Positions 1,477 to 63,547 of a DNA stretch of 64,000 nucleotides are shown here, piece by piece. This stretch comes from Escallonia rubra. Taxonomy: Eukaryota; Streptophyta; Magnoliopsida; Escalloniales; Escalloniaceae. Made by a program: the position numbers and the translations under genes. How positions within the stretch are numbered: the stretch's first letter is position 1; every line of letters starts with the position of its first letter. The stretch lies in NCBI GenBank assembly GCA_033065855.1, contig JAVXUO010002000.1, positions 330,836-394,835 of the forward strand, in the 5' to 3' direction. The notes beneath the pieces were generated by a model that had not been told where the DNA came from, made no database searches, and saw only the letters and a program-made list of their open reading frames with translations.

Positions 1477-3500
<2,024 letters not shown>

Positions 3501-5011: not shown

Positions 5012-5383
5012 GGAGTTTTTTCCCTAAATAATACATATTTAATACTTAATTACCAAAATACACTATTTTCAAACTTATTTACCCGCATACCACATTTTGG
5101 GAAATCGTGGTTTGAAACCACGTTTTCAAGGTAGAAATCGTGGTTTGAAACCACGATTTTTACCTGAAAGTAGAAATCTACTTGATTTTTACCTTAAAGT
5201 AGAAATTGTGGTTTGAAACCACGTTTTCAAGGTAGAAATCGCTGTTTGAAACAGCGATTTTTACCTTGAAAACGTGGTTTCAAACCACGATTTCCCAAAA
5301 TGTGGTATGCGGGTAAATAAGTTTGAAAATGGTGTATTTTGGTAATTAAGTATTAAATATGTATTATTTAGGGAAAAAACTCC
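5012..5383. mobile_element. Foldback (long-TIR) element with nested hairpins
   Basis: The two outer arms (about 5012-5140 and 5258-5383) are near-perfect reverse complements beginning GGAGTTTTTTCCC and ending GGGAAAAAACTCC. The element is flanked by GAAACGG at 5005-5011 and again at 5384-5390, read as a target duplication. Inside, the unit GTGGTTTGAAACCAC, itself a hairpin with a one-base loop, recurs several times, with one variant GCTGTTTGAAACAGC. Long arms and a 7-9 bp target duplication suggest a Mutator-type foldback MITE. It lies just upstream of the inferred eIF1 leader exon, so it may sit in that promoter. Confidence 0.85.
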
Positions 5384-15258: not shown

Positions 15259-15261
15259 CAA

Positions 15262-33064: not shown

Positions 33065-34177
33065 TCTTTGACTTTTCCTATCCTATTTAGGGCTACTTAA
33101 GGCTATTTATATAAAGGTCTTGAGAGTTGAAGAGTCACACAAGGAGACTAAAGTGACAATCCTTATTGCCACAAAGAGATAAGATGAAAAAGACTAAAAA
33201 AATAAATAATACCCTTACCGGTTGGTACATTTATGCCATTAAGGAGAATCGTTTGGTTCAAAGAAAAACCGAACTGTACTCTTTTCCTCCTTAATTTACT
33301 TTTAAGCCTTTTTGAGAAGAAAAAAGACTACATTTTAATTAAAATACACGTGAGAAATTCAAATTTTCTTAATTAATAGGTTTATTTATACTCTCTAGTA
33401 TTTCCTAGTTTTTGGTGGAACCAACTTCGTTTTGGAGGTGCATAATTAGTAACCTTTAGTGAATCGTATTTCATCGTATTTCATAATTTCCATTTTGAAA
33501 TCACTTATGAACCACTCCGGAGTACAAGACCAAAAATTACTCATATATGTGCATGAAGTTATGTTGCTGCTTGTTTTTTTTTTTCATTTTCAAAATGCTT
33601 CTATGAATTATGATTTTTTTTCCGTTCATCTTAGGAAGCTGAGAGAGAGAGAGAGAGAAAGAAAGAAAAAAAGAAAAAAGATGCAAGTAAATACAAGAAG
33701 TTTAATACTTTTAATAATAAATAAATTTGCAACTTTCCATCATTATCAATTATTAAAGGATCGACAGTATTTAACCTTGTTTTCCTTTTAGAAACTATTC
33801 CGTATTTCTCTAACCTTTCACTATATCTTCTTGGGCAAATTAATAAAGACACCCTTTCAACTATGATTAAGTGCTGATTTAACGCTTAAATTTTTTCGCA
33901 AACGGATATGCTCCCAATAAGCACAACGTTAAATTTTAGTTAGAAAATGATCGAGTAAGTAGTAGATAACTAACAAATAGAAAAGAAAACATGGGAACCA
34001 AATTAGTAATGACAATTTTAAAAAAAAATTGGACCATAGGTATCCTTTAATGAGCTCAAGTGTGAGCTATAGCGACGATTTTTCTTGAAGGAAAAATGTG
34101 CACAGAATGAACTTCGTTCATGTCACCTACTTGGATTACTCCAGGGCGTTAACAATGGTGAATACGCAGAATCCCAG
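33065..34177. other. Intergenic upstream of PPR gene
   Basis: AT-rich, with a short (GA)n tract at 33641-33658. The PPR promoter should lie in the last few hundred bases. No other gene was recognised. Confidence 0.45.
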
Positions 34178-37880: not shown

Positions 37881-38906
37881 ATGGCGATCTCCTCCACCCC
37901 CACCCTCCTCCTCCTCCTCTTCCTCCTCATCCTACCCTCCGCCATCCTCTCATCCGATCCCGATTCCTCCGCCGTAAGCGAACTCCTCCACCTCCAATCC
38001 CAGTCAAAATCCGGTCTCATCCATCTCTCGGACCACCTCCTCCGCCGCGTCCCCCACCCCCCCCCCCCCCCCCGTCCCTTCTCCCTCCTCATCTTCTTCG
38101 ACGCCCAGCAGCTCCACGACAAAACTGAGCTCCGCCTCAAGCACCTAAAGTCCGAATTCTCCCTCCTCGCCACCTCCTTCATCCAAAACAACCCATCGAA
38201 CCCTAACATCTTCTTCGCCGATATTGAATTCAAAGAATCCCAATCATCCTTCGGCCTCTTCGGCGTCCAGGCCCTCCCTCACATCCGCCTCGTCGGCCCA
38301 GAGGCCAAAGACCCCAAATCCGACTCCATACAGATGGACTCGAACGATTTCTCGAACCTCGCCGAGTCCATGGCCCAGTTTGTCGAGTCAAAGACCGGAC
38401 TCACCGTCGGGCCAATCCATCGCCCACCCATGTTGTCGAAGACCCAAAACGGTCTACTTGTCTTGGCATTTTTGATCTCGTTGCCATTTTTGGTGAAAAG
38501 GGTTTTGTCAGGTGAGACTTTGTTGCACGATTGGAGGATTTGGCTATCTGGGGCAGTTTCGGTGTACTTTTTTAGCGTTTCGGGTGCGATGCACAACATT
38601 ATTAGGAAAATGCCGATGTTTTTGGCGGACAGGGAGGACCCATCGAAGCTGGTTTTCTTTTACCAGGGGTCCGGAATGCAGCTGGGGGCGGAGGGGTTCG
38701 CGGTGGGGTTCTTGTATTCCATTGTGGGGATAATGCTGGCGTTTGTGACACATGTGCTGGTTAGGGTGAGGAACGTGACGGTGCAGAGGTTTGTGATGGT
38801 TGTGGTGCTGTTGGTCTCGTTCTGGGCGGTCAAGAAGGTGGTGTTTCTGGATAATTGGAAGACTGGGTACGGGATCCATGCATACTGGCCTTCGAGGTGG
38901 ACTTGA
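37881..38906 (+). CDS. OST3/6: Oligosaccharyltransferase OST3/OST6 subunit
   Basis: An intronless frame of 341 residues. A signal peptide (residues about 1-24, rich in Leu) leads to an ER-lumenal thioredoxin-like domain (about 60-180), then four membrane segments (about 191-206, 220-238, 270-293, 302-320) and the family C-terminus TGYGIHAYWPSRWT. This is the OST3/OST6 (TUSC3/MagT1) subunit of the complex that transfers glycans to Asn in the ER. The lumenal domain has no CxxC redox motif at the FFDAQQLHDKTEL position, unlike yeast and animal relatives; my recollection is that plant members commonly lack it. A run of 17 C at 38057-38073 encodes part of the HPPPPPRPF loop, so copy number there decides the reading frame; it is in frame in this sequence. 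Confidence 0.93.
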   Translation: MAISSTPTLLLLLFLLILPSAILSSDPDSSAVSELLHLQSQSKSGLIHLSDHLLRRVPHPPPPPRPFSLLIFFDAQQLHDKTELRLKHLKSEFSLLATSFIQNNPSNPNIFFADIEFKESQSSFGLFGVQALPHIRLVGPEAKDPKSDSIQMDSNDFSNLAESMAQFVESKTGLTVGPIHRPPMLSKTQNGLLVLAFLISLPFLVKRVLSGETLLHDWRIWLSGAVSVYFFSVSGAMHNIIRKMPMFLADREDPSKLVFFYQGSGMQLGAEGFAVGFLYSIVGIMLAFVTHVLVRVRNVTVQRFVMVVVLLVSFWAVKKVVFLDNWKTGYGIHAYWPSRWT

Positions 38907-39265
38907 TAGCGGACGAGGGATTGGAGTTTATTTTCAGTTAGGTAAAAGTTTTATTTACTAGTTTGAATGTGTACGTCATAGTCGAAAAGAATTGGTCACA
39001 CAGAATAAATTCAGCTTCTTAACTGGATGTATTGTTGATTTTTAACTGCTACACTGCTAGTAAAATTTTGGGTGGTAATGATATGCCTCGAGATTTGATC
39101 ATCCAGTATGATGTTTTAATACCTTTCTTAAGTGTTGCTATTAGAATTATTCAGGAAAGTGAGATAGTGGCTATTCTGCAGATGTATTTTTGGTTCTATA
39201 GTTGCATTTCCCCAGCAATGCTAAATTAGATTTAAGCTTTTAGTGATTGCCTCTTTTAAATGGGT

Positions 39266-39562
39266 GAGAGAATCAGCAGTGTGTTATTTAACCCTGCATT
39301 GGTGAGTTGTTAGGCATATGCAAAATTTCTGTCTTAGTGGATTGCTTGGCTTGTTGAAATAGTAAAATATGAATTTAGCTTGAGCACAGAAGGTGTCCTG
39401 CCATCAATTTTCTGAGAGAATCAGCAGTGTGTTATTTAACCCTGCATTGGTGAGTTGTTAGGCATATGCAAAAGTTCTGTCTTAGTGGATTGCTTGGCTT
39501 GTTGAAATAGTAAAATATGAATTTAGCATGAGCACAGAAGGTGTCCTTTCATCAATTTTCTG
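39266..39562 (+). repeat. Recent tandem duplication, 148-bp period
   Basis: The unit starting GAGAGAATCAGCAGTGTGTT at 39266 is repeated from 39414 with only a few substitutions over its full 148 bases. It lies about 360 bases after the OST3/6 stop codon. Confidence 0.95.
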
Positions 39563-43222: not shown

Positions 43223-44020
43223 ATGGAACATCAAGTTGAGATGGTGGGAAGGGCATTTGTGGATCACTACTACAACCTCTTTGACAGTGATAGGGCTTCT
43301 CTCTCGTCTCTCTACCATCCGACGTCCATGCTCAGCTTTGAGGGCCAGAAGGTGCATGGGGTCGATGAGATTTGCAGTAAGCTTAAGAATTTGCCGTTTG
43401 GTCAATGTCATCATGTCATTAGCACCGTCGACACTCAGCCTTCGTCGTTCCCTGGAGGCATCATGGTTCTTGTTAGTGGCAGCCTCCATTTGCCTGGAGA
43501 GGACCATCCTCTTCGGTTCAGCCAGGTTCTCTCTCTCTCTCTCTCTCTCTCTCAATCTCTCTCACGCGCGCATAATAACATGGCAACGACATTGGCGCGC
43601 ATTTTTCTTGAGAAATTCACGAGTGGAAGTTTGGTAACCGGTAAAAAGATTTGTTACTAAAAGTGGTATTCTATCATACGAAATGCACTTATTATCGCCA
43701 ATCACCCCTCGGTTTTTTCTAAGAGACGCAAATTGTTCAATTGCTTTTGATAAGGGTATTTTAGTATAATCGTAATGTAAACCGGATTCTGGCATTCAAG
43801 CAAGGAGATACATCAATTTTTGTCGAACTCAGTTGATCCAATTTTTAAGTTTTGACCATTTCTGCTGCTAAGAAGGTTATGTGTAGTTTCTTACCGACAT
43901 CTTTCATGAACTTGGTTTAACAATTCGATGTTGTCACTTTTGCAGATGTTTCAATTGATTCCCATGCCAGAGGGAAGCTTTTTTGTGCAGAATGATGTAT
44001 TCCGCCTTAACTATGGTTGA
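43223..44020 (+). CDS. NTF2: Nuclear transport factor 2 (NTF2)
   Basis: Two exons (43223-43525 and 43946-44020) separated by a GT-AG intron give 125 residues, the normal plant NTF2 length. The protein starts MEHQVEMVGRAFVDHYYNLF and carries the family landmarks SMLSFEGQKVHGVDEI, HHVISTVDTQPS and FRLNYG at the C-terminus. NTF2 is a cytosolic homodimer that binds Ran-GDP and FxFG nucleoporins and returns Ran to the nucleus. The start is the first ATG that gives the family N-terminus; the same frame is open upstream but without support. A (CT)n tract (43527-43553) begins immediately after the exon 1 donor. It coincides with the left edge of the tandem duplication: a second copy of this intron and exon 2 lies at about 51735-52202. 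Confidence 0.95.
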
Positions 44021-44622
44021 AATCTAACCATTCTCGGATGTTTGATTGGGCGGTGATCCGTGAATTCTTCTAAAAATATAATAAGAATGCTATTTCCTAT
44101 TTTCTCTATCTTCCAAATAAAAGCAAAACCGTGTAAAATGGACTAGGACTAATGAAGAGGAAATTATTGTGCAAGTTTTCCTCATTTTTCTACATTGTGG
44201 AATTCAATGCCTTTGTTTCACTAGATTTTTTAATGTGTGAGAATAAGAAGACACCCTTTCTCGTGATCAATCCGACCACTTTCTTCATCCCTCGAAGGAG
44301 GAGGAGAATAGAGCCAGGAGGGAGAAGTTAAACATAAGATAATCGCATGTTATACTGTAAAACATTTATAAACAACTTTCTGTGGTGGTCGTGGAAAAAG
44401 CAAGATTCTCATAGAATATAACGAGCATGAGAGAGGAAAAAACAAAAAGAATTAACATGCTCCTTTGTGTAACATTTTTTCTCGGATTCCAACCAAGCCT
44501 TAGGTTATGTTCACAATACTCAAACTTGATTGTCAAGGTTAATTTCTCAGGTGTGGAGGCTCCAACAAATCATTCTTGGGAGGCACTCATCGGGTCCGGT
44601 CAAAGAAGACTTGTTACGTGAG

Positions 44623-45284
44623 GAGGGACGGATCCAGAAAGTTTAATCGGGGGCGCCAAAAAGACATAAAAAAATTGATGACTAACATAAAAGAATAAAG
44701 AAGGTTTAAGTTCATCAACATTACTACTGCTAACATTTTTTGTTTGAAAGAACTAACCAATTGTGTGTGACTTTGACTTCCCCATCTACAAAAATAAGCA
44801 TATTATAATTAACGCAACTATTGAATACGTTAAATGCATAGTAAATTAATTAGTTCGTGTTTTTCGTAACTATTGAATACATTAATAATATAAGAATTAA
44901 ACTAATGAATAGCGTAACTATTGAAATAGCGTAACAATTGAATACGTTAATACTATAATTAGCGTAACTATTGAATTTGTTAATACTCCAAGAATTAAAC
45001 TATAAACAAAAGAACTCATCTTGATCAATTCGTGTTTTTTTGGTAATCTGGAAATTTGAAATTTGAGATTTGGAAGAATGAAGAATGAGAATGAAGAAGA
45101 TTATGACGGCCGATGACACAAAGAATAAATAATACAACAAATAAAACCCTAATTAATAAGTTACGATATAATGGCATTTTCGTAAATATGTGAAATGTGA
45201 GTATTATTATCAATAACTAAAAACAAATCCAAAAAATTGGGGGGTGCCGTGGCCCCCCCGGGCCATGCTACAGTTCCGTCCCTG
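44623..45284. mobile_element. hAT-like non-autonomous element, 662 bp
   Basis: Ends AGGGACGGATCC (left) and TTCCGTCCCT (right) are short inverted repeats. TACGTGAG lies on both sides (44615-44622 and 45285-45292), an exact 8-bp target duplication as made by hAT transposases. The inside is AT-rich with imperfect repeats of GCGTAACTATTGAATACGTT between 44810 and 45000. No transposase. The element is absent from the corresponding place in copy B. Confidence 0.88.
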
Positions 45285-46076
45285 TACGTGAGACCGCGTG
45301 CAGACTTTGTTTGCACCGTAATTGCACACTTTGTTTAGATGACAAGATCTTATTAATCAGTTTTAAAGATGACGTGGAGAGTCATTCCCACCTAAAATAC
45401 CCGTCAATTTCCACAAAACACGTGATTTTACAAACTTCTTCTAAGACAAAAGGAAATAACACAAATCCATATTGTCCAAACCTATAGTCTCACGTTGGCA
45501 AAACATGAAAGTGGTACAAAGTTTTGTTCTATAGTCATAATAATGTTGGCCTTATATACACTATTGTGGTAAACCTATGGTCCACATTGATTCGCATATC
45601 ACAATAATCTTTCTTTGCCCCCTATTATACAAGAAGTTATTCAATAAAAAACTATAGCTGGTGGACAAATCCGCCGACATCTTCATCAACAATCACATGC
45701 TCTAAAGTTTGGACAAAGTTTCGCAAAAGCCATTGGGGTGGGGTGGGGTGACGATTAATGCTCAAACCCATTTACCATCCGGCATGATCTTAATGTGTTG
45801 TTTATTTTAAAATTTAAGAACCAGTGAGTTTAAGTAGATAATAGATGGGTGTTCATTTAACCATATAGATAGTCTACCTTTTTTAAATGAAAAGTTTCCG
45901 TAACCTAAATTTTTTCTTATCTTCTCTCTCACAATGTCACCACGTAAAAAGTATGCCGCCGCCGCCACTTTTGCTTCGCGTTCGGGGGTGACCGTCATTT
46001 CTCCGGTTTTCTCTGTCACAAGTCAACTCTACGATGACTTAAAGTTATTTACTGAGCTTTGGTCCGAAAAGGTGAG

Positions 46077-46114
<38 letters not shown>
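46077..46114 (+). repeat. (TA)n microsatellite
   Basis: About nineteen TA units, directly before the truncated SINE in the copy A spacer. Confidence 0.95.
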
Positions 46115-46116
<2 letters not shown>

Positions 46117-46310
46117 TACAAAAATTGGCAGAACCGTAAGGCTTTGATTCAACCGGTAGAGAGTATTGTGCCTCGAAAACCTACAAGGCCACCACATATA
46201 TTTGAGCTCCCGATTCCCGCACCTATGTCGGAGCCGAAGCGCATGCATGAGACCCTAACCAGGTAGTATGCCTGAATTGAGATCTTGAGAACCGCTGAAC
46301 CAATTCCTTA
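46117..46310 (-). mobile_element. SINE copy, internally deleted
   Basis: The stretch GATTCCCGCACCTATGTCGG (about 46213), GTATTGTGCCTCGA (about 46164) and GAGATCTTGAGAACCG (about 46279) match the complete reverse-strand SINE at 63579-63856 in the same order. The segment that should hold the RNA polymerase III B box is missing here. The matching position in copy B has no such sequence, so it arrived after the duplication or was lost from copy B. Confidence 0.75.
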
Positions 46311-47248
46311 TCGGTATTCTCTTGTCAGTCTCACCTCTCACAGGTAATGATAGCGTCGGAGGGCAAAAGCAAGAATATGGTCTTTCTGGGTGAACTTTGG
46401 TGAAATTGTCACATATACACAAATGAAAGCAGCACACACCCATGAGTGTGATGCGCTGTATGTTCAAGTTGCCCTTTACTTTCCATATATAACGGGGAAT
46501 TGAATTATTGCGCTCTTTTTTCTTCTTCTTTTCCCCTTTCTTTTTTGCGGGTGGGCAAGGGGGTGCCACTATATAATATTAAGTTGGATTACAAAGTTAC
46601 AAATCCGTGATCAAACTTTGACTAGCACTTCAACCAATCTCAGATGAGCATAAGCGGAATTACTCTCATATTCTCGTGGTTTCTAAGTGTTTATTTAAGT
46701 AACGAGCCATATTAGATTATCGAGTTTTAGCGCTTCAGTTAATCTTAAACGAGCATAAGGTGAATTACATTCATAATATTGAAGTAATTTTTAAATAGAC
46801 ATTTGCATATCGATCCAACTTGAATTAATTGAGAACTTAAAAAGCTTGTCCAAACTTGATCTGATAATCTCGGATTAACTTGTAAATGGTCGACTCGATT
46901 GCTTAGGATACCTTGTCACCATAATAAATATACTAATACAAAAGCTGAAATCATGGAGTCAAAGTGACCATGTTGCCACCGGAATAAATACTAACACAAA
47001 ACTGAAATTATGGAATCAAAACCTAACCATTTCAGTGATAATAACCACCCGAATATTAATATTAATACTAATAAAACCAGGATAACGATCTTCTATTCTA
47101 CAACATATTTGCACTAACAGCTATAGTGATAAAAGATCGTCAGCGCAAGTATTTTGATACTATTATTAAAATTACAGTGATAATCTTTTAGTGTTAAAAT
47201 GTCCCTTTAACGACACTTTTCTTAAGGAAAAAATTTAGCTGTTAAACG

Positions 47249-47444
47249 CGTTGAAGGAATCTTCTCCTACCCTCATATAGCGACAATTAATGGTCGTTAA
47301 ATGTTTCTAATAAATTTTATTTAGTGACAAAAAAAAAAATGTTGCTAAGAATTGTCGTTCAAGTGTTAGCAAAAAAGCCATTAAAAATGTTTACTGACTA
47401 TTAATTGTTATTATATACGGGGTTGAAGGAATATTCCTACGACC
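47249..47444. mobile_element. MITE, TAGCGACAATTAAT family
   Basis: The left arm GTTGAAGGAATCTTCTCCTA..CATATAGCGACAATTAATGG is matched in reverse by the right arm ATTAATTGTTATTATATACG..GTTGAAGGAAT..TCCTAC. It is inserted in the copy A spacer and missing from copy B. Target duplication not resolved. Confidence 0.65.
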
Positions 47445-47762
47445 AGAGTAGCGGCCAAAATATGTTCTTTTCTTAATCACATCTAAAGTGTTGTACAGCA
47501 CTAGTTCCAAATCTGTAATGAATGCACTTAATAAAATAAGAATGCCCTAGTAATTTATATATATTGACATCAAGTGGCATCACTGTGACTAGTGGGTGGT
47601 AGACTATTTAATAAAAACCACGTGAAACCCAGAAATTATTTTAAATTTTTTGCTATCTTTTCCAAACTTTAATTATTACTAAATGCAATTTTGCACATTA
47701 TCTTGTTCCTTCAATCAGTTGCTAGATCTTTGTCACGTAATTTTCTTCACTCTCAGCTTGGC

Positions 47763-47769
47763 TATAAAA
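47763..47769 (+). promoter_or_regulatory. TATA box of PME copy 1
   Basis: TATAAAA lies 52 bases upstream of the PME start codon at 47821, matched by TATATAAA upstream of PME copy 2. Both are followed by AGACA.TAGAAGAACT. Confidence 0.7.
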
Positions 47770-47820
47770 AGACATTAGAAGAACTCAAACACCATAGCTA
47801 AGCCAAACACAGTACCAGTT

Positions 47821-50800
47821 ATGGCAATTACCCACCAACCTCTGCTAGAGCCTAGAGTTGTCAAAAGGGCCGGGCGGCCCGCGGGCTGGCCCGACCCGGC
47901 CCGGTTCTGGCCCGGGCTGGCCCGGCCCCGTCCATGAACAGTAGCGGCCCTGCACAAGGGGGGCTGGGACCTGGGCCTGGACCAGGCCTTCAGATTCTGC
48001 GAAAAAGCCCGGCCCGGCCCGGCCCGGAAACGGCCCGGTTTTGGCCCGGCCCGAATCCAGCCCGGTTTTGGCCCGGGCTTGGCCCGGTTCTGCGGCCCGG
48101 TTCTGGCCCTGTAGGCCTGTTTGGCATTTTCTGTTTCATTTCTCTTCTATGTTTCTTGTTTTCTTGTTTTTTTGTTTTCTGTTGGTTCTTCTTTCTTTCC
48201 CATAAGGGAAAGGTTTTCCCTTTTTTTTTTCTTTCATTATCTTCCACCCAATGCATCCATTATCCACATATCTCATATTTTAACATTTAACTAACATAGT
48301 AATTGTAAGTTGTAACAAGGAGGAGGTGGCAAGACTATAAAACATGGTTTTTTTTAATTATTTTTTATAAAATTACACAAATGTCCCTAAACTTTACGTA
48401 TTTATAAAAGCACCCCAAACTTTGAGAGTCATGGTGATATTATTGAGAAACGTCTCTATAAGAATATTGTTGCTCCGCACTTAGGATAATTAGCAATCAT
48501 TTTTCAGTAGACTTTCGGACAAAGAAACGTAATCTTGGGACATATTTTGAGATCGAGATTTGTGTACTATTCGAATTATACTTACAAGATTTTCTTTGAT
48601 TGCACGATTTTGACAAATCTCATATTCACGTCTCTTACGAAAACAACAAGAATTGGCACACAAAAAGAAAACATTTTTTTGCTTCTCGCTTTTGCTCTAG
48701 TTCTTTTTTAGTATTGAGGAATGATAATGGTAAAATATAAGAGCGCATCAACAATAAAGTTTTTCGAGCCTCAACCCATTATTAAAAGTAAAAGTAGCCT
48801 ACAACAGTTTGCTCTATATAACCATCATTGTCGCTAAATGTTATTAGTGTCATTTTGCATGCATTCTTTTAACAATTGTTTTAGCATTACAATCGTTTTG
48901 CATACGTTATTTTAAGAATTGTTTTAGCGTTATAAAATAAAAGTTACTAGACATATTTAAAAGGAAATACTCATGTAGTAACCAATTCTTTTTTCCCAAT
49001 TCAAGATAAATTCATGAGGAAGTTGTATCTCTAATAAAACAACATTATGAGTAAAGAGGGATAATTATAGCCAATTAAAGAAAAAAATTAACAAAAAAAA
49101 AAAAAAAAAAATTGGGCCCGGGCCCGGCCCAAGCCCGGCCCTAAATATTGGGCCTAGGGCCAGGGCTTGGACTGGGCCTAGCATTTCTCCCAGTCGGCCC
49201 GGCCCGGCCCGGCCCGGTTGGCAGCCCCACAGGCCCGGCCCCGGCCCGGCCCCACAGCAGGCCCGATGGGCTTGGGCTGGGCCGGCCCAAGCCCGGCCCT
49301 TTGACATCTCTACTAGAGACACCCAAGAAAAGCTCCCATTTCAAGTTCCTGTATGTTTTCCTCTCCATAGTTGTTGTCATAAGCCCAGTTGCTTATGTTG
49401 CTACCAGGCTGAAATACTCCACTTCCCCTTCTCCTTTGAGAGCTCATATTTGCGATAAGGCCCACGATCGGGTATCATGCATGGCTATGGTATCCGAAAT
49501 AACATCTGCTCGATCGATCCAAACAAACGATATAGACCTGCTACAGGTCTTTTTGGAGAAATATATGTCGCATTTACGAGATGCAGTTGAAATGACGAAG
49601 GATGTTAGCATTCGGATCAACAACCCCAAGGAACAAGCGGCTTTAGCTGATTGCCTGGAGTTGATGGATATGTCAAAGGATAGGCTGATGGACTCGGTTG
49701 TGGCACTTGGGTATCGGACGGCCCATTCCCGTTCAGATGCTCATGCATGGCTTAGTAGTGTACTCACTAACCATGTTACGTGCTTGGATGGGCTCGATGG
49801 GCCAGCCCGGTCCATCATGGAGCCTAGTCTCGAAAACTTGATATCAAGGGCAAGAACATCCTTGGCAATGGTGGTTGCAATATCACCACTGAATGCCGAA
49901 GTTCTTCGACCGCTGAACGGGGACTTCCCGTCGTGGGTCACATCTAGGGATCGAAAGCTCTTAGAAGCTTTCCCTAATGTCATCAATGCCAACGTGGTGG
50001 TGGCAAAGGATGGCAGTGGTAACTACAAAACTATCCAAGAAGCCGTAGCATCTGCACCAAATAATGGCAAGAGCCGGTACGTTATCTACATTAAGAAAGG
50101 AACTTATAAAGAGAATATTGAAATCGGAAAGACGAAGACAAATGTGATGATCACGGGTGATGGCATGGATTCGACCATCATCACGGGTAGCCTAAACGTC
50201 GTCGATGGGTCAACGACGTTCAAATCTGCAACAGTTGGTAAAATATCTTCTCATCTTTTTAATTAAAACTTAACTTGCCATAAATACTTCATGCTAGTGC
50301 ATGAAACCCTCATTGCACAAAATTTTCTTCCATGAGTTCACTGAAATTTTATTTTTGTCTCCAACTTTTGGACCATTGACATCATTTTTGACAAAAAGTT
50401 TAAGCTTGTGGGCCATTTCTACAAGGCCCAAGCTATGACTGGTGAGGCCCATTAAGTACTTGGACATGACAGGTCCTAGTGAGAAATGATCTAAATTGGG
50501 CAGTAGAGACTAGAGTATTATATTTAAGACTTCGGTAAAGAAGAATGAAACCTTTTCCATAACAAACTTTGTTGTATGATCTACAAAAATGCAGCTGCTG
50601 TTGGGGATGGATTCATAGCCCAGGATCTGTGTTTCCAAAACACAGCTGGGCCGGAGAAGCACCAGGCCGTGGCGCTACGCGTCGGCGCCGATCAGTCCGT
50701 TATAAACCGTTGCCGGATCGACGCTTACCAAGACACCCTCTACACTCACACCCTCCGCCAATTCTATAGAGATTGCTACATTACCGGAACCGTGGACTTC

Positions 50801-51286
50801 ATATTTGGCGACGCAGCTGTGGTGTTCCAAAATTGCCAACTCGTGGCCCGAAAGCCCATGAGCGGACAGGGTAACATGGTAACGGCCCAAGGCCGAACTG
50901 ACCCGAACCAAAACACCGGGACCTCGATCCAGAGTTGTAATATCATAGCGAGCGCAGACCTTGAGCCCGTAAAGGGGTCCATAAAATCTTACTTGGGCCG
51001 CCCGTGGAAAGAGTACTCGAGGACTGTTGTCATGCAATCGTACATTGGAGACCACATTGACGCAACAGGTTGGTCAGTATGGACTGGGGACTTTGCTTTG
51101 AAAACATTGTACTATGGCGAGTACTCGAACCGAGGACCGGGCGCGGGTACTGCCAAGCGCGTTAGCTGGCCCGGATACCGCGTCATCACTAGCGCGGCCG
51201 AGGCGAGGAAATTCACGGTAGCCGAGCTGATACAAGGAGGGGCATGGATAAAGTCTAGTGGAGTGACATATACCGAGGGGTTGTGA
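47821..51286 (+). pseudogene. PME: Pectin methylesterase copy 1, exon 1 split by a hAT element
   Basis: The gene begins MAITHQPLLE (47821-47852), is interrupted by a 1460-bp hAT element (47853-49312), and resumes as TPKKSSHFKFLYVFLSIVVV at 49321. Exon 1 then runs to 50237 and exon 2 from 50595 to 51286. Apart from the insertion the frame is open. It encodes a type-I PME: membrane anchor, PMEI-like pro-region (HICDKAHDRVSCMAM...), and the catalytic domain with GTYKEN, QAVAL, QDTL, DFIFG and LGRPW, the five PME signatures. Family enzymes remove methyl groups from wall pectin. Reading from the start codon meets a stop inside the element; the open frame entering from the element's right end has no ATG until well into the pro-region. 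One difference from most PMEs is Asp after DFIFG, where Asn is usual. The gene is probably inactive unless the element is spliced out. Confidence 0.88.
47853..49312. mobile_element. GC-rich hAT-like element in PME copy 1, 1460 bp
   Basis: Ends TAGAGTTGTCAAAAGGGCC (47853) and GGCCCTTTGACATCTCTA (to 49312) are inverted repeats. Flanks are CTAGAGCC (47845-47852) and CTAGAGAC (49313-49320); the uninterrupted copy B reads CTAGAGAC, so the 8-bp target duplication has one later change on the left. Both ends (about 200 and 230 bp) are long runs of GGCCCGG-like words; the middle is AT-rich and shares no recognisable transposase. The TAGAG.TGTCAAA..GGGCCGGGC end type is common for non-autonomous hAT elements in plants. 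Confidence 0.93.
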
Positions 51287-51445
51287 GGTTGGGGCATCTG
51301 TTACTTTCAGGGGCTTTTGTTGTATTAACTACCGGTAAGACATTGTGAGAAGTTGCTTCTTGAATTGGGCCCTGTCGTATGGCAATAAAACCAAGGACAT
51401 TTGTGAAAGAGGTATCGTTTAGTTGATGGGTTTTGCCTAAGATTA

Positions 51446-51730
51446 AACTAGGGGCACTTCCTCCATCGAAGTTACAAACAAATCTGGCGTTCCTAACCAT
51501 CTCGGGTACCACAATATTACATGTTCTCCGCACTAGTGCAGATCCACAAAATTGTAGCCTCAAGGAGTGTAGCTGGAACGATGGACACATCCCCTACTCG
51601 CTGCATCTCTCAAAAGCCCGTACCGCAAACGAATTGCACTGCTTCGAAAGTAGCTATTGAAAATACATAAAACCAGAGGGCTAATGTGAGAAAAAAAATC
51701 ATTTTTTATTCGGTAACATAACCAGTGGGC
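51446..51730. other. Junction DNA between duplication copies
   Basis: These 285 bases belong neither to the shared 3' flank of the PME genes nor, clearly, to NTF2. No feature recognised. They may be filler captured at the duplication junction or part of the original sequence later lost from copy B. Confidence 0.5.
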
Positions 51731-51734
51731 TGGC

Positions 51735-52202
51735 TCTCTCTCTCTCGCATGCCCATAATAACGTGGCAACGACATTGGCGCGCATTTTTCTTGAGAAGTT
51801 TATGAGTGAAAGTTAGTCACCGGACAAAAGATTTGTTACTTACTAGAAGTCGTATTCTTTTGTACGAATGCACTTATTATCGGCAATCACCCCTCGATTT
51901 TCCTAGGAGATGCAGATGGTTCAGTTGCTTTGAATAAGGATACTTCAGTATAAACATAAGGAAAACTGGATTCTGACATTTGAGTAAGGAGATGTATCAA
52001 TTTTTTTGGAACTCAGTTGGTCCAAATTTTACGTTTTGACCATTTTTACTGTTAAGTGTTAAGGAGGTTATGCGTAATTCCTTACTAGTGGCCGATAACA
52101 TCTTTCATGCAATTTAGTTTAACGATTCGATGTTGTCACTTTTGCAGATGTTTCACTTGATTCCCATTCCAGAGGGATGCATTCCACCTTAACTATGGTT
52201 GA
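51735..52202 (+). pseudogene. NTF2 remnant (intron and exon 2)
   Basis: From CTCTCTCTCTCTCGCATGCC onward the sequence follows the NTF2 intron (CATAATAACGTGGCAACGAC at about 51753 versus 43571). It reaches the acceptor GTTGTCACTTTTGCAG and an exon 2 copy at 52148-52202. That exon is 55 bases against 75 in the intact gene, through loss of 20 bases after CCAGAGGG, which changes frame. Exon 1 is absent. It cannot encode NTF2. Confidence 0.9.
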
Positions 52203-54607
52203 GATCTAACCAATCTCGGATGTCTGATTGGGGTTGGGGGGGGGGGGGGGGGGTTGCCATTTTCTTTTTTCTCTCTCTTTCAAATAAAAGCAAAAGCGTG
52301 TAAAATGAATTACAACTAATAAAAAGAAGTTTTTCTCATTTTTCTACATTGTGGAATTTGATGCCTTAATTCACTAGATTCGAACGTGTGAGAAGAAGAA
52401 TACACCTTTTCTCATGATCAGCCTGACCAATTTCTTCATGGCTTGAAGAGTTCAAAAAAGGAGGAGCACAGAGAAGTTAAAAAGACCATATATGTATGTT
52501 ATACGATGAAGAGTTTATAGACAACTCTCTGTGATTGTACGTGAAGTATAATTCTCATACTATGTAACCAGGATGAGAAAGAAAAAAAAAAATGTAAGAT
52601 GCTCCTTTGTGTAACATTTTTCCTTAGATTCCAAAGGCAACCAAGCCTTAGTTTGTATTCACAACATTCAAACCTGTTTGTCACAGTCAATTTTTCAGGG
52701 ACGGAGGCTCCAACAAATCATCATTGGAAGGAACTCGTTGAGTCCGGTCAGTGAGGACCTCTCACCTAGCCCTCAATTTGCACAAATCACACGGTTTTAC
52801 ACACTTCTTTTTTTACTAAAGGAAACAACACGAAGGATATATGGTCTTTATCCCCAGTCTCACGTCGACAAAACAGAAACGTGATACAAAGTTCTGTTCT
52901 ATGGTCATAAACTCATAATGGTGTCGGCCTCATATACATTGTTGCAGTAGACCTACGCTCCACATTGATTCACAAATCTCAATCTTGTCAAGTCTTTCTT
53001 AGCCTCTATTCTATTATACATAAACTTTATCCAAAAAAAGAAAAAAAACTATAGCTGGTGGACAAATCTGTAGGCATCTTCGTCGACATTCACATGCTCT
53101 ATATATAGTTTCGATAAAGTTCTAAATATAAGCCTGGCAATAAATGCCCAAACTACTTTATAGTTCACATCCACATCTGACCGCTTAAAACTCACTAAAA
53201 CCCATCCATTTGATAATTTAATATTAGTAGGTCACTTTGAAATTTAAGAACTGCCTGCTATAAGTGATGTCGTAAATATGTGCTCGTTTAATCATATATA
53301 TAGTTACGTTAGAAGTCCCGCAACATAAAATTTTCTCCAGTGTTCTCCTTGACGAGCCACCACGTAAAAGTAGGTCATCGTTATCGTCATTGCCGTTCGA
53401 CTGTGAGAGCGTCTTTTCTCCGATCTATCTCTCTCACAAGATATTTCTTACTATGATTTTACTTTAAGTCATTGTAGAGTTAAAATCCGAAAAAACGTGT
53501 AGAGACCGGTAGTGCCATCCTTCCACTACTCCAAATTTGTCACAACCAAAGCTTTCAATTGTCCTGTCAATCTCACCACTCACAGGCAATGATAGCATCA
53601 GAAGGGAAAAGCAAGAATAGGATCTTTCTCGGTGAACTTTGGTGACATTTTCACATCTACAAATGAAAACAGCACACTCAGATGAGTGGGATACACTGTT
53701 ATCACAACATCCTTTGCATCATCAAGTTGCCCTTTCCTAGTTTACTTTCGATACATTCAAAGAAGACTTGCTTGGGTTCTTCTTTCTTCCTAGTCTCCTT
53801 TATTTTTTCAATTGCGGCCGAAGCAGATGGTGCGACAAAATGATATTAAGTTGGACTGTAAAGTGTTGGGAACGCGTGATCAAACTTTGATTAGAACTTC
53901 AACCAATCTCAGATAAGCATAAAGCGACTTGCTTTCATGTCTACATAGTTTTTAAATGTACATTTGCATATTGAGCCAACTTTAATTGATTGAGAACTTA
54001 AAATCCGCACTCAAACTTGACTATTATCTTTTGCACTGATCTCATAACCTCGGATTACCTCGTAAGTGGCCGATTTCTTAAGATACCTTGGCCATATTTC
54101 AACCCGATCTTATAAAACAGACATGTGGTACCACCATAATAAAAGATATAAAGCTGAAATCATGGAGTCAAAAACCTAATTATTAATAGTGATAACAACT
54201 ACCCGAACACTAATATTAATAAGAACGCGATAAGGATTCTCTGTTGTACAACATAATTGCCGTAACAGTTTTAGTGACAAAGAGTTACTAATTCAAGTAT
54301 TTTATTATCGTTACTAAAATTTATAATGATGATATTTTATTATTAAATCATTTAGCAATAATTTTTTTTATCAAAACGAAATTACTTTACAGCAGAAACA
54401 TCCTCATAATTTACAAATTGTGACATCAAGTAGCATCACTGGGACTAGTGGGTGGAACACTGTTTAATGAAAAAAAAAAAAACAATTTTATCTTTTTCTC
54501 TCTTTTCCAAAGTTTGATTATTACTAGATGCAATTTTGTACATTATCCTTTCCCTGCAATCAGTTGCTTGATCTTTGTCACGATCTTCTCTTCACTCTCA
54601 GCTTGTC

Positions 54608-54615
54608 TATATAAA
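54608..54615 (+). promoter_or_regulatory. TATA box of PME copy 2
   Basis: TATATAAA lies about 53 bases upstream of the start codon at 54668, at the same spacing as in copy 1. Confidence 0.7.
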
Positions 54616-54667
54616 GACACTAGAAGAACTGAAGGACCATAGCTAAGCCCAAAACACAGTATCAGTC

Positions 54668-56621
54668 ATGGCAATTCCCCATCAACCTCTGCTAGAGACA
54701 CCCAAGAAAAGCTCCCATTTCAAGTTTCTTTACGTTTTCCTCTCCATAGTTGTTGTCATAAGCCCAGTTGCTTATGTTGCTACTAGGCTGAAATACTCCA
54801 CTTCCCCTTCTCCTTTGAAAGCCCATATTTGCGATAAGGCGCACGATCGGGTATCGTGCATGGCTATGGTATCCGAAATAACGTATGTTCGATCGATCCA
54901 AATGAACGATATAGATTTGCTACAGGTCTTTCTGGAGAAATATATGTCACATCTACGAGATGCAGTTGAGATGGCGAACGATGTTAGTAATCGGATCAAC
55001 AACCCCAAGGAACAAGCGGCTCTAGCGGATTGCCTGGAGTTGATGGATATGTCAAAGGATAGGTGATGGACTCTGTTGTGGCACTGGGGTATCGGACGGC
55101 CCATTCCCGTTCGGATGCGCATGCATGGCTCAGTAGCGTGCTCACTAACCATGTTACGTGCTTGGATGGGCTAGATGGGCCAGCCCGGTCCATCTTGGAG
55201 CCTAGTCTTGAAAACTTGATATCAAGGGCAAGAACGTCCTTGGCAATGGTGGTCGCAATATCACCACCCAATGCCGAAGTTCTCCGACCACTGAACGGAG
55301 ATTTCCCGTCGTGGGTCACACCTAGGGACCGAAAGCTCTTGGAAGCTTTCCCTAATGACATCAATGCCAATGTAGTTGTGGCGAAGGACGGCAGTGGTAA
55401 CTACAAAACTATCCAAGAAGCTGTGGCATCAGCACCAAACAAGGGCAAGAGCCGTTACGTTATTTACGTGAAGAAAGGAACATACAAAGAGAATATCGAA
55501 ATCGGAAAGGCGAAGAAAAATGTGATGATCACGGGCGACGGCATGGACTCGACCATCATCACGGGTAGCCTAAATGTCGTGGATGGGTCGACGACGTTCA
55601 AATCTGCAACAGTTGGTAAAATATTTTCTCATCTTTTTAATTAAAGCTTAACTTGCTATAAATACTTCATCCTAGTGCAAGAAACCCTCATTACACAAAA
55701 TTTTCTTCCATGGGCTCACTGAAATTTCATATTTTCTCAACTTTTGGACCATTGACATCATTTTTGACAAAAGTTCAAGCTAAGAGCCTAAGACTGGTGA
55801 GGCCCATTAAGTACTCCTAGTGCTAAATGATCTAAATTGGGCTGTAAGATTGGTGTATTTAAGACTTTGGCAAAGAAGGATGAAACATTTTGCATAACAA
55901 GCTTTGTTGTATGATCTACCAAAATGCAGCTGCTGTTGGGGATGGATTCATAGCCCAGGATCTGTGTTTCCAAAACACAGCTGGGCCGCAGAAGCACCAG
56001 GCCGTGGCGCTACGAGTCGGAGCCGATCAGTCCGTCATAAATCGTTGCCGGATCGATGCTTACCAAGACACCCTCTACACTCACACCCTCCGCCAATTCT
56101 ATAGAGATTGCTACGTTACCGGAACCGTGGACTTCATCTTTGGCAATGCAGCTGTGGTTCTTCAAAATTGCCAGCTCGTGGCCCGAAAGCCCATGAGCGG
56201 ACAGGGGAACATGGTAACGGCCCAAGGCCGAACTGACCCGAACCAAAACACCGGGACCTCGATCCAGAGTTGTAATATCATAGCGAGCTCGGACCTTGAG
56301 CCCGTAAAGGGGTCCATAAAATCATACTTGGGCCGCCCGTGGAAAGAGTACTCGAGGACTGTTGTCATGCAATCGTACATTGGTGACCACATTGACGCAT
56401 CAGGTTGGTCAATATGGACCGGGGACTTTGCTTTGAAAACATTGTACTATGGCGAGTACTCGAACCGAGGGCCAGGCGCGGGTACTGCCAAGCGCGTTAG
56501 CTGGCCCGGATATCACGTCATCACTAGCGCTGCCGAGGCGAGGAAATTCACAGTAGCCGAGCTGATACAAGGAGGGGCATGGCTGAAGTCTAGTGGAGTG
56601 ACATATACCGAGGGGTTGTGA
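54668..56621 (+). pseudogene. PME: Pectin methylesterase copy 2, frameshifted in exon 1
   Basis: Exons 54668-55615 and 55930-56621 correspond to the full type-I PME gene, starting MAIPHQPLLETPKKSSHFKF. At 55061-55066 the sequence reads AGG TGA TGG where copy 1 has AGG CTG ATG G; one base is missing, so the frame stops after MDMSKDR in the pro-region. Everything downstream stays open in the shifted frame, including GTYKEN, QAVAL, QDTL, DFIFGN and LGRPW. The exon 2 products of the two copies differ at nine residues by my count. With restored frame the protein would be about 546 residues, a usual PME length. The downstream frame is open throughout, so the deletion is recent, restricted to this accession, or a sequencing error. 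Confidence 0.87.
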
Positions 56622-56799
56622 GCTTGAGGCATCTGTTACTTAAAGGGGCTTTTGTTGTAATAATAACTGGTAAGACATGGTGAGAAGTTGCTTCTTGGGC
56701 TTGGACCTTGGACTTGGGCGGTGTTGAATCGCAATAAGTCCAAGGACATTTGTCAAAGAGGTCCAATTTAGTTGATGGGTTTTGCCTAAGATTATGGTG

Positions 56800-57600
56800 A
56801 ATGATAAGTAGTAGGAAATTAGAAACATAATAATTTTCTGCATGTGTGGCTTTCGCAAACAGATTTGGAGTACACTCCTTCAGAACTTTAAAATAAGCTG
56901 ACCCCTTCTACCATAAGTTGGTGCAATTGTTTCCCTTTAATTTCCATCTGAAGTTGTGCAGTCTCTTGGCTTGAGTAAGAATCCCAAGGTACTGCCTTGA
57001 GGCTGTTTCGAGCAATAACAGAACCAATCACCCACAAAAACCGAATTGTTCGTCGCTTCAGCTGGTATTTCGACAATGAACCATGAAATTCTTAGACCAA
57101 AATTGACAGTGAGATTCGTTCACAATGGACGTCCAAAACTTGTGATGTATGATTGGTGATATGCATGATAGCCAATTGTTTTTAGTCTGTAACTGGTATA
57201 TGTTCAAGCCCAGTCATTTGCAGAAGCTACAATTTTCACCAGTACAACTGAAAGAATTCACCTCTTTACATGTTCATTCCTTGCCGTAATATCAAAAGAT
57301 AAGGGGGAAAAAAAAAGAATGTTGCATCATCCCAAATCAGTCACCTTCCAACATTGGAGAACATATCTTGCCTCACATCCCCAGTCCCACACCTAACTTC
57401 TCATCTTTGTTATCTACTTTTAAGTTAATAATTCACAAACACACAAGAGATGCAGTTCTCTTCTAAATTTACACCACTCTTCTTTGACAGCCTGCATTCT
57501 CCTCGCAGCTCCTCTTGTGACAAATATCCCCCAAGTACAAAAAGGGGACAATGACTGCCTTGTAGACATTTGTCCCTCTTCGGTTTCTCATGCCAAATTT
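56800..57600. other. Between PME copy 2 and RIC gene
   Basis: Beyond the end of the duplicated 3' flank no gene was recognised. The right part should hold the 3'UTR of the reverse-strand RIC gene. Confidence 0.45.
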
Positions 57601-57610
57601 GGGAAACTTA

Positions 57611-58952
57611 CTACGCCACTTCTATATTTGAAGGCTTCGTGTTGCCTTCAACGAATTTTGCCTTTGACGACTTTGCTGCTCGTGATGACCTCGAGGAAGA
57701 GGAAGACTTGGGGGAAGAAGTCGATTTGCTCTTCTTCCGCTTCTGTTTTTTGGGAATATTTGGAAGGTCCGAGGGTTGTATGTCCTTGAACATCTCGGAA
57801 GTTGCTTGTCGTCCCATGGATTCTCCAAAATCTATAGAAAAAAATTGGTCAGGATTGATATGTCTGATCCTTGTGCAAGCATAATCCCAAAATAACATCA
57901 AATTAATAACTCAAATCACGATGACATTTTCGAATACACGACGCCCAATGCAATCCTGCAGATTTCAAAATCCACACTGCACATGTAGCTAATGTGTCAC
58001 TGGGCTTCAAAGAGTAGGATGACCAGCAAACTCTTATTGAAGAGTCATACTGTTTCCAATCAAGACCAACCATGATTTTCCTAATTATATTACAACTACT
58101 CTAATAGTGTGTCTAATGTCTTTACATAGGTCATACTGGGGTGCTATATATAAGCTAAACCTACAAAAAAATCAACAAATTTGGACTGGTCCTCTCTTGG
58201 ACCATCCCTTGATTGATTCCCTTGTTATAAAAGCAATGTCTCGTGACAGATGAGCCAAATTCCTCCCGTTGGAGACAAAGAATCTTTGTAAGCTTTTTCC
58301 TATCTTACAAGTTAACTTCTCTAATTTATAAGAAACATTGGACAATTCTATATGTTGTCTTCCTAACATTTTCACCTATCCCTTGTTTGATTAGGAACCT
58401 TGCACATGATGTGAATCACTAAATACAGGGAGAAATATAAAGAAACAAACCTTGAGAGGACCAAGGGGAAAGAGCTGAACCAGAATTACCAATTGATGTG
58501 GCTGCAAAGTCGGGTCCTGTCTTGAACTCATTCATCTGTACATATTTATTTTAACAACAAACGTGACAACAGAAGAACCGAATTAATACGGAAGAACAAT
58601 ATACGTTCCACCACGTCGAATGAATAAAAGCAGTGGCGTACCCAACTAGGCGCGGTGCCAGAGGGGCTATCCCAACCAATATGCGCAACATGTTTGACAT
58701 CGGTTGGGTACCCAATTTCAATCTCGCGCTCCTTCACAACTGCAAGGGTGTTAGCGGAGACGTTACAGTTATGCATGGTTGTACGACTTTAACGATCGAC
58801 TTATAACGATTGTAACCTTTTTGGGCTACATGGTTATCATAAGGGGATTCGAATCCGGAAAACACACACATGAATTGAAGATAAAGATCATTACCAAAGA
58901 TTTGGGAGATGTATTTGAATCCTTTGTAAATCCCTTTCATCTTGGTTCCCAT
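57611..58952 (-). CDS. RIC: ROP-interactive CRIB protein (RIC)
   Basis: Four reverse-strand exons (58895-58952, 58642-58739, 58451-58535, 57611-57831) join in phase to 153 residues. It starts [19 protein letters not shown]. The CRIB motif follows at about residues 28-43, [16 protein letters not shown], with all the conserved core positions, then SGTAPSWMNEFK. The second half is basic and Ser/Lys-rich ([15 protein letters not shown]...). RIC proteins bind GTP-loaded ROP GTPases through CRIB and relay signals to actin, microtubules and vesicle traffic at the plasma membrane. The N-terminus and layout resemble Arabidopsis RIC10/RIC11; that subgroup is inferred. Exon joins are all GT-AG. No defect is visible. 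The basic C-terminal half could bind membrane lipid. Confidence 0.93.
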
Positions 58953-61900
58953 GGTGGAGACTCTGCAAGCCTTATAAAATTATCCTTCTTCTAGGACAAA
59001 TGTCACAGTAGAAGAAGCACCAAACAAAAATGGGGAGAGATGGTTCCTTTGCCTGTTAAAAAAGCAAGCGTGAACATGTGGGTATTTTCTCAAATCACCT
59101 TTTTCTTCAAAGAAAACAAAAGGGGGAAACAAAAATAAAACAAAAAGCTGGAAACAGTTTGCCTTGGAAATGGGAATGGTATCTATCCCTCACTCTAAGA
59201 GAATTGGTATACATATATGGAATCAAAAGGACATCTGGGCAATTGGGGATCTTAACCAATAACCAATGCTAACACAAGGATTTGCAGTAATACCTTTTTC
59301 AGACAAGGAATGAGATGATGCAAGGAGAAAGGAGGCTCAAAAGAGAAACTGCTTCCCCTTCCCTTCCAGCCACATTCCCCATCTCCCTTCAGCTGTAAGC
59401 TAACATTCTTGACACATACATTCAAAATGCATGCCAAAACAAACAAACCCAACGGGAAGAAACCAAGATAGAATTCAGGAAAAGAAGTAGAAAGCAAAAC
59501 AAAGAGAAATGCTGCTAGCTAGCTATGGGTGCTTTCTTGTTTGGGATGGAGTTGGACCTTAGATTGATGGAAAATGGCAAGAGAGTTGGCCCGAGGGGAG
59601 GGAAGAGAAATTAGGCAAAGGGGAAGAGAAGGAAGAAGAAGGAAGGGAAACACAGAGTGGGGAGAAGGGAAAGGTGGAGAACCACGAAAACCACCCAAAA
59701 GATGGATGGGGGATGGTTTTCTAAGGACATGGACAGAAACTAGAAAGTACACAGCAATGAATACACAAATAATGAAGTAAAGACATTGTCATAAATCTTT
59801 TTTTATTTTTTTTGGAATTTTTATTTATTGGGGGGCTGTAAATGGGGTCAAATAAAATGGAATTTGTTTGGTGCATCAGTGTTTTCTTGTTGAACGAAAA
59901 TGGCGGGTCTGATCTGGTCCTTTTCTATTTCTGTCTGTCTGAATTAAGCTCCTAAATAACTGCTTTAGCTCTCTTAAAATGCGGGCAACATTCAGACCAA
60001 AGAGAATATTATAGATTTTATGTCTTTGTTAATCCACCTACCCTTGTTTGTTTATTCCATCCCTCCCCCCCCCCCCCCACCCAAACAACACACACACACG
60101 CATCCTAAAAATAAAAGGAGCAATAATCTAAGAGATTCAACAAAATTTTCAAGGTTAATTAAGTTTTTTCACCTTTAAAGTTTACGATTTTGCAATTCAA
60201 ATTCTGGAATCGAATTGGTGGAGTGTAATAGTTCACACTAATTGCAAGCGGATGCTAAAAATATGATCGAATGCTTTTAGTTTGGATCGTTATTATAGAT
60301 GATGTTAAAGGGCATCCATTCACGGTTCTTAAACATGATTTCAGTTGTTGAGATGAAAATTTGAATGAAAGAGTTGTCAACCTATTTTATGCCTTCGATC
60401 CTTCGTAATGTGCTCCCTCGCTAGCATTCACCTCTTTTTATCTTTAAAAAAAAAATTAGTGTCAGACATGGACAAAACCTTTTTCTACTCAAATATCTTT
60501 AAAACCCATCTTATATAATTTATTTATTTGATGATTTTCTAAGAATTATGTTTATGTTCTTTTCTTTATAAGCTCCAAGAACATTACAACTGTGTCATCC
60601 CTCCCAACTGTCGAGAGTCATTGTTTGCTCATTCGTGCTATCCACAGAATAATCATATCAATTATTGTTCAGATTTGCTACCAAATGGAGAATTGAAGTC
60701 AGATTCTTTCCAAATCATGCCATGGTGTTCATTTCAAAATCATTCCTTAGTAATAAACTATGTTTAGCCACCCACACATATGTGCCTTAATTTCCTGATC
60801 TGCTGTGACACCACACCACCTTTCATGTGGTACCTTTGGGAACTCCAACCTAATCCTTATGTAAATATTAGGAAAAGAGAAAAGTTGGAGCCACGTCTTA
60901 TAAAGTTGTTGCTTGTTTTGCAACACAGCTGAACTTTTATGGTACCTGAACTTGGAGATGGTGTTAGTCATTTTCAGACAGCCTTGTGCTTTCCATGGTA
61001 ATACAGAGATCATCACGAGTTCCTTAAGAAGAAAAAAAAAAAAAAAAGACTTTGATTGCAGTTCTTATGTTTGATGTTGAACATTTACAAGGGTCTTTAA
61101 GGGATCTTCAAGAACATTTTTGATAGTCGAGCCTACGAGTAATAGGTTGTGACAAAGTTATCGTCCCAAGTTAGAAGAATTGGACCCTGAACCTTAATAA
61201 AATACGTGATGGAGTAAATATTACATGGTTCTGAATTATTAGTCCCGATCTCTGAGAACCGTTAAAATAAGAAAGCTAAGATAACAGAAGGACACACTAA
61301 AAGAGACAGATGGCTATTCTATATTACATCTAATGGTTTTAGATAGCCAGAATCACTGATTCGAAACTGTACATATTTTATTCTCAGTCAGTAATTTCAA
61401 TGTTTTGCTTAAATTTTCTCCCATTGAATCTCGTTTGGACGTAGCCAGACAGCCCAATCAAGTGGAGTGCAAATCATTTTTCAATATTCCATTTAAATCC
61501 CATTTTGCTACGTCCAACAAAGAAAATTACTTTCTAAAAACCAACAAATAAGATTTTATGTTATCCTATCTCTAACTTTAATCACAATGAGGAAATCAAA
61601 AACTCAAGTACCAAAAATAATATTAGGAAGCGAATTCAAAACATTTAATTTGCCCAATTTTATGAGGATTTGAACTAAGATCTGCTTTAAAGGGACGAGG
61701 GAAGTATGATTAGATGGTTGAACTAAAGCTTGTGAAATTCAATTAGAGTCAATGCCTGATTGGCTGGCTGCTGGCATACAGTTTTCTTAATTGCTACACA
61801 AAATAAGAAATAGCAACATTCTGGTTGAAGAGAATGTTATGACATTGTACTAGTTGTCCAAACATATATAGTGTGTGAGATTTCTCTTGCTATTGGCTTG

Positions 61901-62590
61901 TCTTTGATGATGATAGCTTAACAAGCAAACCAATAATTAATATACCATCTGACCAGTGTAACTTTACTAGTCACAACCTCTTCTTCCATGAAAATGACTG
62001 GAAATCTGTATACCTTATTTAGCCATTTCCACATCCAAAACTTGATCGATATCTAAATATTTGAACTACAAGAAAAAAATGAATCGAAATAGCGCAAACA
62101 ATTGAGAGAACCTTCAAACAAAGCGTTCGTGCCACGCAACATAATCATGTTCTTAGTTCCAAAATTTGGTTTTGAGGTTTGACGCTTTTCAAACGACCGC
62201 GAGCAACGAGCCGTAGGCCATTTTATTTCTATTTTGGATTGGCAGGAGACAGTTTTGGGGGGGTCAACATTTATTCCTGTGAATTATTCACAACAAGTTA
62301 TTATTCTTTTATTATGATTTCCAACTCGTTATGATGGAGCCTTACCATTACCAAACCCAGCTTCTATTGTAGGCCAAGCCCAAGGAACCTTACACCATAC
62401 TCAAAGGGGGAACTTATTGGGCTGGCAGTTCAATGCTGGAGGGCAATGGAATGGCTGACTAGAGCATGAAATCAGTATGGCTCTAATTTTGGGTTATTTT
62501 GTGGGCCTGTTCCTCCGGCAGCTAATAATGTTGAGGCTGGGCCGTCTACGGTGGTGCACTCTTTTGATGACAGTCAGGATACTCTTCCAC
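58953..62590. other. Intergenic, including RIC promoter region
   Basis: On the reverse strand 59550-59720 is strongly CT-rich, as in many plant 5' leaders, and may be the RIC 5'UTR or promoter. A 14-C run is at 60065-60078. No other gene, RNA gene or clear repeat was recognised in 59800-62590. Confidence 0.4.
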
Positions 62591-62597
62591 CTGCGGA

Positions 62598-63547
62598 TAG
62601 GGATGGCAAAAAAATCCGAACCCGCAGAATTCCACCCCGCCCCGCTAGGAGCGGGTTATTTTGACTTTGACCGAGGCGTGGGGCGGGTATGGTTTTTTTT
62701 AAAAAAATCCGCAATGGGTTAGGGGCGGGTATGGTATTTAGTCCAGACGCCCCGCGACCCGCCTCGCCCCGCGACCCGCCCCGCTATATTAACCCTATTC
62801 ATCTTTTAATCATAGTCGTCCATCCCACACATATATAACATGCCCTTTAGCCCTTATCAGCCCCCATTCCCCAAAACCCTATTTTCCAATCAATCTCTCT
62901 CTGCCGACAACAATGGTGCCGCACCGCCGTCGCGCCTCATCTTCTCTCCCTCTCCTTCGCACCGTCGGTGAGACGGCGACTGACCTGCGAGGATGCGACA
63001 CCTGCGCCGTCGCGATTGATGTTACTGCATCGTGCCGCACCGCCGTCGCACCTCATCTTCTCTCTCTCCTCCTTCGCACCGTCGGTGAGACGGCGACTGA
63101 CCTGCGACGATGCGACTGTCGACTGACCTAACGGCACCGTGGTGACTGACCTGCGCCGTTGCGATTGACGTTACTGCATCGTGGCGATTGACCTGCACCG
63201 TTGCGACTGACATAACAGCACCGTCGATGACTGACCTACGAGGCTGCGACGGACCTAACGGCACCGTCGGCGACTGACTCAACAGCCAGCCATCAGCAAG
63301 CCGCGATCTAGAAGAAGTGATCTGCTGCCAATTTCACTGCCGTGATCTACTGCCAATTTCGCATCGCTGGGGGGCGGGGCGGGGCGGGGCGGTCATGGGT
63401 TTTTTAAAGCATTTTAGGATCGATTATGGATTTGAGATGGTACAACCCGGAGCGGGGCGGGTGCGGGGCGGAGTGGGATTTCAAGGGTAGCGGGGCGGGT
63501 GCGGATCTTATAAGATCCGCATCCGATCCGCCCCATTGCCATCCCTA
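62598..63547. mobile_element. GC-rich hAT-like element, 950 bp
   Basis: It starts TAGGGATGGCAAAAAAATCC and ends CCATTGCCATCCCTA, an inverted-repeat end typical of plant hAT non-autonomous elements. Subterminal regions are rich in CCCCGCCCCG and GGGGCGGGGCGGG on the respective sides. Inside, a unit of about 115 bases with CCTCATCTTCTCTC and TTCGCACCGTCGGTGAGACG occurs twice (about 62925 and 63040). Flanks show no convincing 8-bp duplication, so the assignment rests on the ends. Confidence 0.75.

Follow-up and report, generated by a model that had tools for sequence, protein, structure and literature searches.

A probable old tandem duplication of an NTF2-intron-to-pectin-methylesterase segment in Escallonia rubra

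A segment reaching from the intron of an NTF2 gene to just past a type I pectin methylesterase (PME) gene occurs twice in the analysed DNA. The copies are adjacent, on the same strand and collinear beyond the coding exons, making this a tandem segmental duplication. It probably goes back to one old event with a unit of ~5–6 kb (later insertions aside). The single-copy ancestral state is one that we infer. The window, i.e. the whole stretch of 64,000 nucleotides that was analysed, is the terminal 64 kb of contig C963 (assembly of 566 Mb, 3222 contigs). Feature coordinates are given in Table 1.

Self-alignment yielded six collinear direct blocks, which bears out the initial annotation of an NTF2-intron-to-PME segment present twice in the same orientation. 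The collinearity was also found outside the PME exons, and the feared match of PME exons only was not seen. The copies had been proposed to start, on the left, within a CT tract after the NTF2 donor, and this was found: both begin in a CT run, and upstream of it no alignment between the copies was seen on inspection by eye. At the right side, an end just past the PME stop (56795) had been proposed. There is a sharp end past the stop, but the real edge lies at ~56827. As far as 56827, copy 1 of the contig C297 agrees with copy 2 of the window at 47 of 48 bases; beyond this point homology ends. The final 33 bp of homology are lost in copy 1 of the window and retained in C297. Hence, 56794 is just the end of matching in the window allele, and 51445 is not the original edge.

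Table 1. Features of the window (positions count from its first base)
Feature	Position	Strand	Remark
FAD-binding/berberine-like (BBE) gene	13609-15261	-	Pfam
PPR-repeat gene	34085-35899	+	Pfam
OST3/OST6 gene	37881-38906	+	Pfam
NTF2 exon 1, parental gene	43223-43525	+	open frame; exons 1 and 2 Pfam NTF2 PF02136, E=8.2e-33
CT microsatellite at NTF2 donor	43528-43553	+	left edge of copy 1
Duplicated unit, copy 1	43554-51445	+	remainder of NTF2 intron with exon 2, intergenic sequence and PME1
NTF2 exon 2	43946-44020	+	whole in copy 1
662-bp hAT-like element (putative)	44623-45284	+	in copy 1
PME1, type I pectin methylesterase	47821-51286	+	exon 1 interrupted in window haplotype; whole allele in C297
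1,460-bp hAT-like element (putative)	47853-49312	+	splits exon 1 of PME1 behind codon 10
Filler between copies	51446-51733	+	
Duplicated unit, copy 2	51734-56827	+	
CT run	51734-51745		left edge of copy 2
NTF2 exon 2 remnant	52148-52202	+	in copy 2; lacks exon 1 and has a 20-bp deletion; acceptor AG retained
PME2, type I pectin methylesterase	54668-56621	+	1-bp deletion near 55063 shifts frame in C963
Gene-conversion patch, copy 1 to copy 2	56474-56627	+	in haplotype C297, not in window
Collinear block	43556-44610 / 51737-52758	direct	self-alignment
Collinear block	45398-45720 / 52767-53121	direct	self-alignment
Collinear block	46316-46709 / 53558-53978	direct	self-alignment
Collinear block	46727-47198 / 53891-54347	direct	self-alignment
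Collinear block	47551-47850 / 54407-54697	direct	self-alignment
Collinear block	49308-51445 / 54687-56794	direct	self-alignment

Two further contigs of the assembly cover the region. C297 (77 kb), a second haplotype contig, carries the region corresponding to the window, with the same two-copy arrangement and junction at 95–98%; divergence between window and C297 was 2–5% per longer block. C964 starts at window position 52646, repeats the right part of the duplicated region from there on and continues through the 3' flank. Over window positions 52646-62670 (compared with C964:1-10000), C963, C964 and C297 are three distinct sequences. Among 9951 gap-free columns, C963 had 94 private differences, C964 had 52 and C297 had 95, which is more than expected from two haplotypes. 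This three-sequence overlap may reflect polyploidy, pooling of individuals in the sample or the presence of a paralogous segment. A stretch of ~2.7 kb at C297:51084-53793 corresponds in place to 137 bp of the window (44328-44466), ~300 bp past NTF2 exon 2. Elsewhere, the window holds a polyubiquitin gene with five 228-bp repeats (2355-3500), a long imperfect palindrome at 5012-5383 (87% match to its own reverse complement; perhaps a foldback element) and two copies of a 148-bp direct repeat (39265-39562, 97%).

NTF2 of copy 1 has a complete PF02136 domain (profile 1–116 of 116), and the exon-1 matches on C963 and C297 are free of stops. The second NTF2 had been described as an intron plus a shortened exon 2, and this agrees with both the window and C297: exon 1 is absent and exon 2 has the 20-bp deletion. 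The accompanying claim that the first gene is intact applies to NTF2 with its two exons, but not to the first PME, which is split by the 1,460-bp insertion. Among the other NTF2 matches in the same genome (C3211, C2912, C2600 and C1741), considered as a source of an internal outgroup, none is on a contig of the listed PME matches, although their neighbours may lie on a different contig.

Copy 2 does not follow directly on copy 1. They are separated by sequence that has no counterpart in either copy, here called filler, which measures ~290 bp in the window and ~350 bp in C297. Its final 208–209 bp are common to the window and C297 at 98%. The first 77 bp of the window filler are wholly unlike the longer C297 sequence at the same place and had no other match in the genome. 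In a genome search, the C297 filler had no match other than its allele in the window, apart from its first bases, which matched the right edge of copy 2. Filler lengths of 286 bp (window) and 340 bp (C297) were put to a shuffle test against the 3' flank, NTF2 exon 1 with its upstream sequence and the NTF2 intron/exon 2 stretch. No score exceeded the shuffles: in all 12 of 12 tests, 15 or more of the 100 shuffles did as well as the real sequence, while a duplicated-spacer stretch used as control gave a score of 181, where the best shuffle gave 29. With scores not above shuffles, the filler was rejected both as a degraded NTF2 exon 1 and as lost 3' flank.

CT-type runs of at least five units number eight in the entire window. 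Only two are in 42.0–58.5 kb, and these are the two left edges. Positions no more than 5 bp from a dinucleotide run of at least five units make up 0.7% of the window. A left edge at such a place is mildly unexpected and suggestive, but it was judged post hoc on one case. The microsatellite had been proposed as break or pairing site. A break is compatible with the left edge in the CT tract, which may be one broken end; alternatively, a later deletion may have stopped there. Pairing is unsupported, with no CT run at the right end of the present sequence and with filler at the join. Among the papers listed in a literature search (judged on titles and the starts of abstracts), none presented a plant tandem duplication edged by a CT tract.

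Identity between the window copies, with gaps left out, was 93% in the PME block (90% with gaps) and 79–86% in four noncoding blocks, the last of which extends over the sequence upstream of PME into its first codons. The K2P of the flanks by block was 0.15–0.25 in the window, a range from which the chaining rule left out the block 46727-47198/53891-54347 (67%), and 0.17–0.29 in C297. The whole copies 1 and 2 of C297 gave an overall Ks of 0.22, a Ka of 0.027 and a Ka/Ks of 0.12; taken separately, exon 1 had a Ks of 0.29 and exon 2 one of 0.125. Between C297 copy 1 and C964 copy 2, the overall Ks was 0.27, with 0.30 for exon 1 and 0.23 for exon 2. For the two PME copies of the window, exon 2 was counted and gave 0.14. 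The PME intron differed between copies by p 0.09–0.11, which is below exon 1 and most flanks.

On these sequence distances, noncoding K2P and PME exon-1 Ks fit one old event, and the Ka/Ks of 0.12 shows conservation of PME. As exon-1 Ks is as high as the divergence of the flanks, the high PME identity thus stems mostly from purifying selection on the exons. Whole-locus gene conversion as its source was rejected for exon 1 (Ks 0.29, flank level). Exon 2 and the intron are less diverged than exon 1 and most flanks, and a single clock therefore requires some conversion. Conserved PME exons beside freely diverging spacers mean that high exon identity need not imply a recent duplication.

One such conversion patch was located in C297. 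The count comprised 129 sites of three patterns (117 + 7 + 5) and left out single-sequence differences and the patterns 00011 (6), 00110 (2) and 01100 (1). The paralogues were separated by 117 sites and the C297 copies joined by 12, 10 of them within 56474-56627. In this interval, 10 of 11 informative sites joined C297 copy 1 with C297 copy 2 and one was opposite. The longest run of joining sites was 6, which was matched in 1 of 20000 shuffles. The patch leaves the PME intron uncovered.

Both PME copies of C297 have the PMEI (PF04043) and Pectinesterase (PF01095) domains (exon-by-exon scan of the C297 sequences). Two insertions in copy 1 of the window are absent from C297, and we take them to be hAT-like from their flanks and ends. 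The flanks of the 1,460-bp element, CTAGAGCC and CTAGAGAC, agree at 7 of 8 bases (8-bp target duplication); its inverted ends are TAGAGTTGTCAAA and TAGAGATGTCAAA, and the site in C297 is empty. Forty loci (its own included) of 3147 candidates were scored, and the other 39 were near full length at 96–99%. The 662-bp element has perfect 8-bp flanks, TACGTGAG on either side, and imperfect inverted ends; 40 loci (its own included) of 1643 candidates were scored. Non-autonomous plant hAT elements likewise have 8-bp target duplications, short inverted ends and many similar copies.

The frameshift of PME2 is missing from C297 and C964, where the frames are open. The 1-bp deletion is possibly a mutation or a sequence error, the latter because, over the 10-kb overlap, 7 indels of 1 bp occur in C963 alone, compared with 3 that are private to C297 and 1 that is private to C964. 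Tentatively, and with some doubt, the window haplotype might be a natural null for the PME locus, combining the insertion in PME1 with the frameshift in PME2 and segregating against whole-copy haplotypes. Should neither gene truly be present in the window haplotype, the locus would offer a natural knockout, and loss of both tandem PMEs would segregate despite long purifying selection.

The single tandem duplication probably arose as follows. One chromatid would have suffered a double-strand break where the NTF2 intron has its CT tract, and the sister or the homologue a break ~200 bp downstream of the PME stop. Non-homologous or theta-type end joining would then have linked the two ends and inserted filler; the filler at the join points to end joining. 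The product would be one whole NTF2, a dead NTF2 tail and, with an upstream region of its own, a second complete PME. Purifying selection would afterwards have kept both PMEs, which would also have exchanged one short tract or more. PME1 of the window haplotype was later struck by the hAT-like element, and PME2 there carries the frameshift, by mutation or in the sequence as read. Filler DNA at end joins is documented in maize together with exchanges between tandem copies, and the examples in the available part of that report are 1–131 bp long and derived from nearby sequence (PMC2686159). The filler here exceeds this range and its source was not found, which speaks against the end-joining account.

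A longer history is unlikely. The unit may have been larger, with NTF2 duplicated as a whole, and a filler-bearing deletion stopping in the CT tract may later have taken the end of copy 1 together with exon 1 of the second NTF2. That the spot was rearranged more than once is evident from the 77 bp of the window facing a different, longer sequence in C297. However, neither NTF2 exon 1 nor the sequence upstream of it could be traced in the filler above shuffles, and this history requires two events.

Unequal crossing over between CT tracts would account for the left edge within the tract. It would call for a matching tract at both parental ends, which the present sequence does not have: since the only CT-type runs of at least five units in 42.0–58.5 kb are the two left edges, there is no right-end partner. 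The partner may have decayed or been lost since, but the join also carries filler, and we regard this origin as very improbable. Still further down is an assembly artefact, for which the chance appears negligible. The window is at a contig end where three similar contigs overlap, as such an artefact might have it, but its copies differ by 7–21% per block (gaps excluded), compared with 2–5% between window and C297. The same arrangement and junction in C297 also make an artefact unlikely, although C297 is from the same assembly and thus not independent data. A single old tandem duplication is the reading that we retain.

This duplication is ordinary tandem-duplication biology, and nothing in it departs from the known PME and maize kinds. 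Side-by-side copying is an ordinary growth route for such gene families; in tomato, the part of the report available gives 11 tandem events among PME genes (PMC7063471). As in the plant tandem type I PMEs described there, neighbouring genes with PMEI and Pectinesterase domains arose here by tandem duplication. In contrast to that description, the unit here also carries the 3' part of NTF2 as a dead passenger, and both PMEs are interrupted in one haplotype. The locus is a clear example of a tandem duplication dragging along the exon of a neighbour, with a readable join. The maize p1/p2 cluster, as far as the available text describes it (PMC2686159), likewise has tandem copies, filler at the join, exchange between copies and transposons nearby. 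Its filler measures 50 bp and was traced to nearby sequence, whereas the filler here measures ~290–350 bp and lacks a located source.
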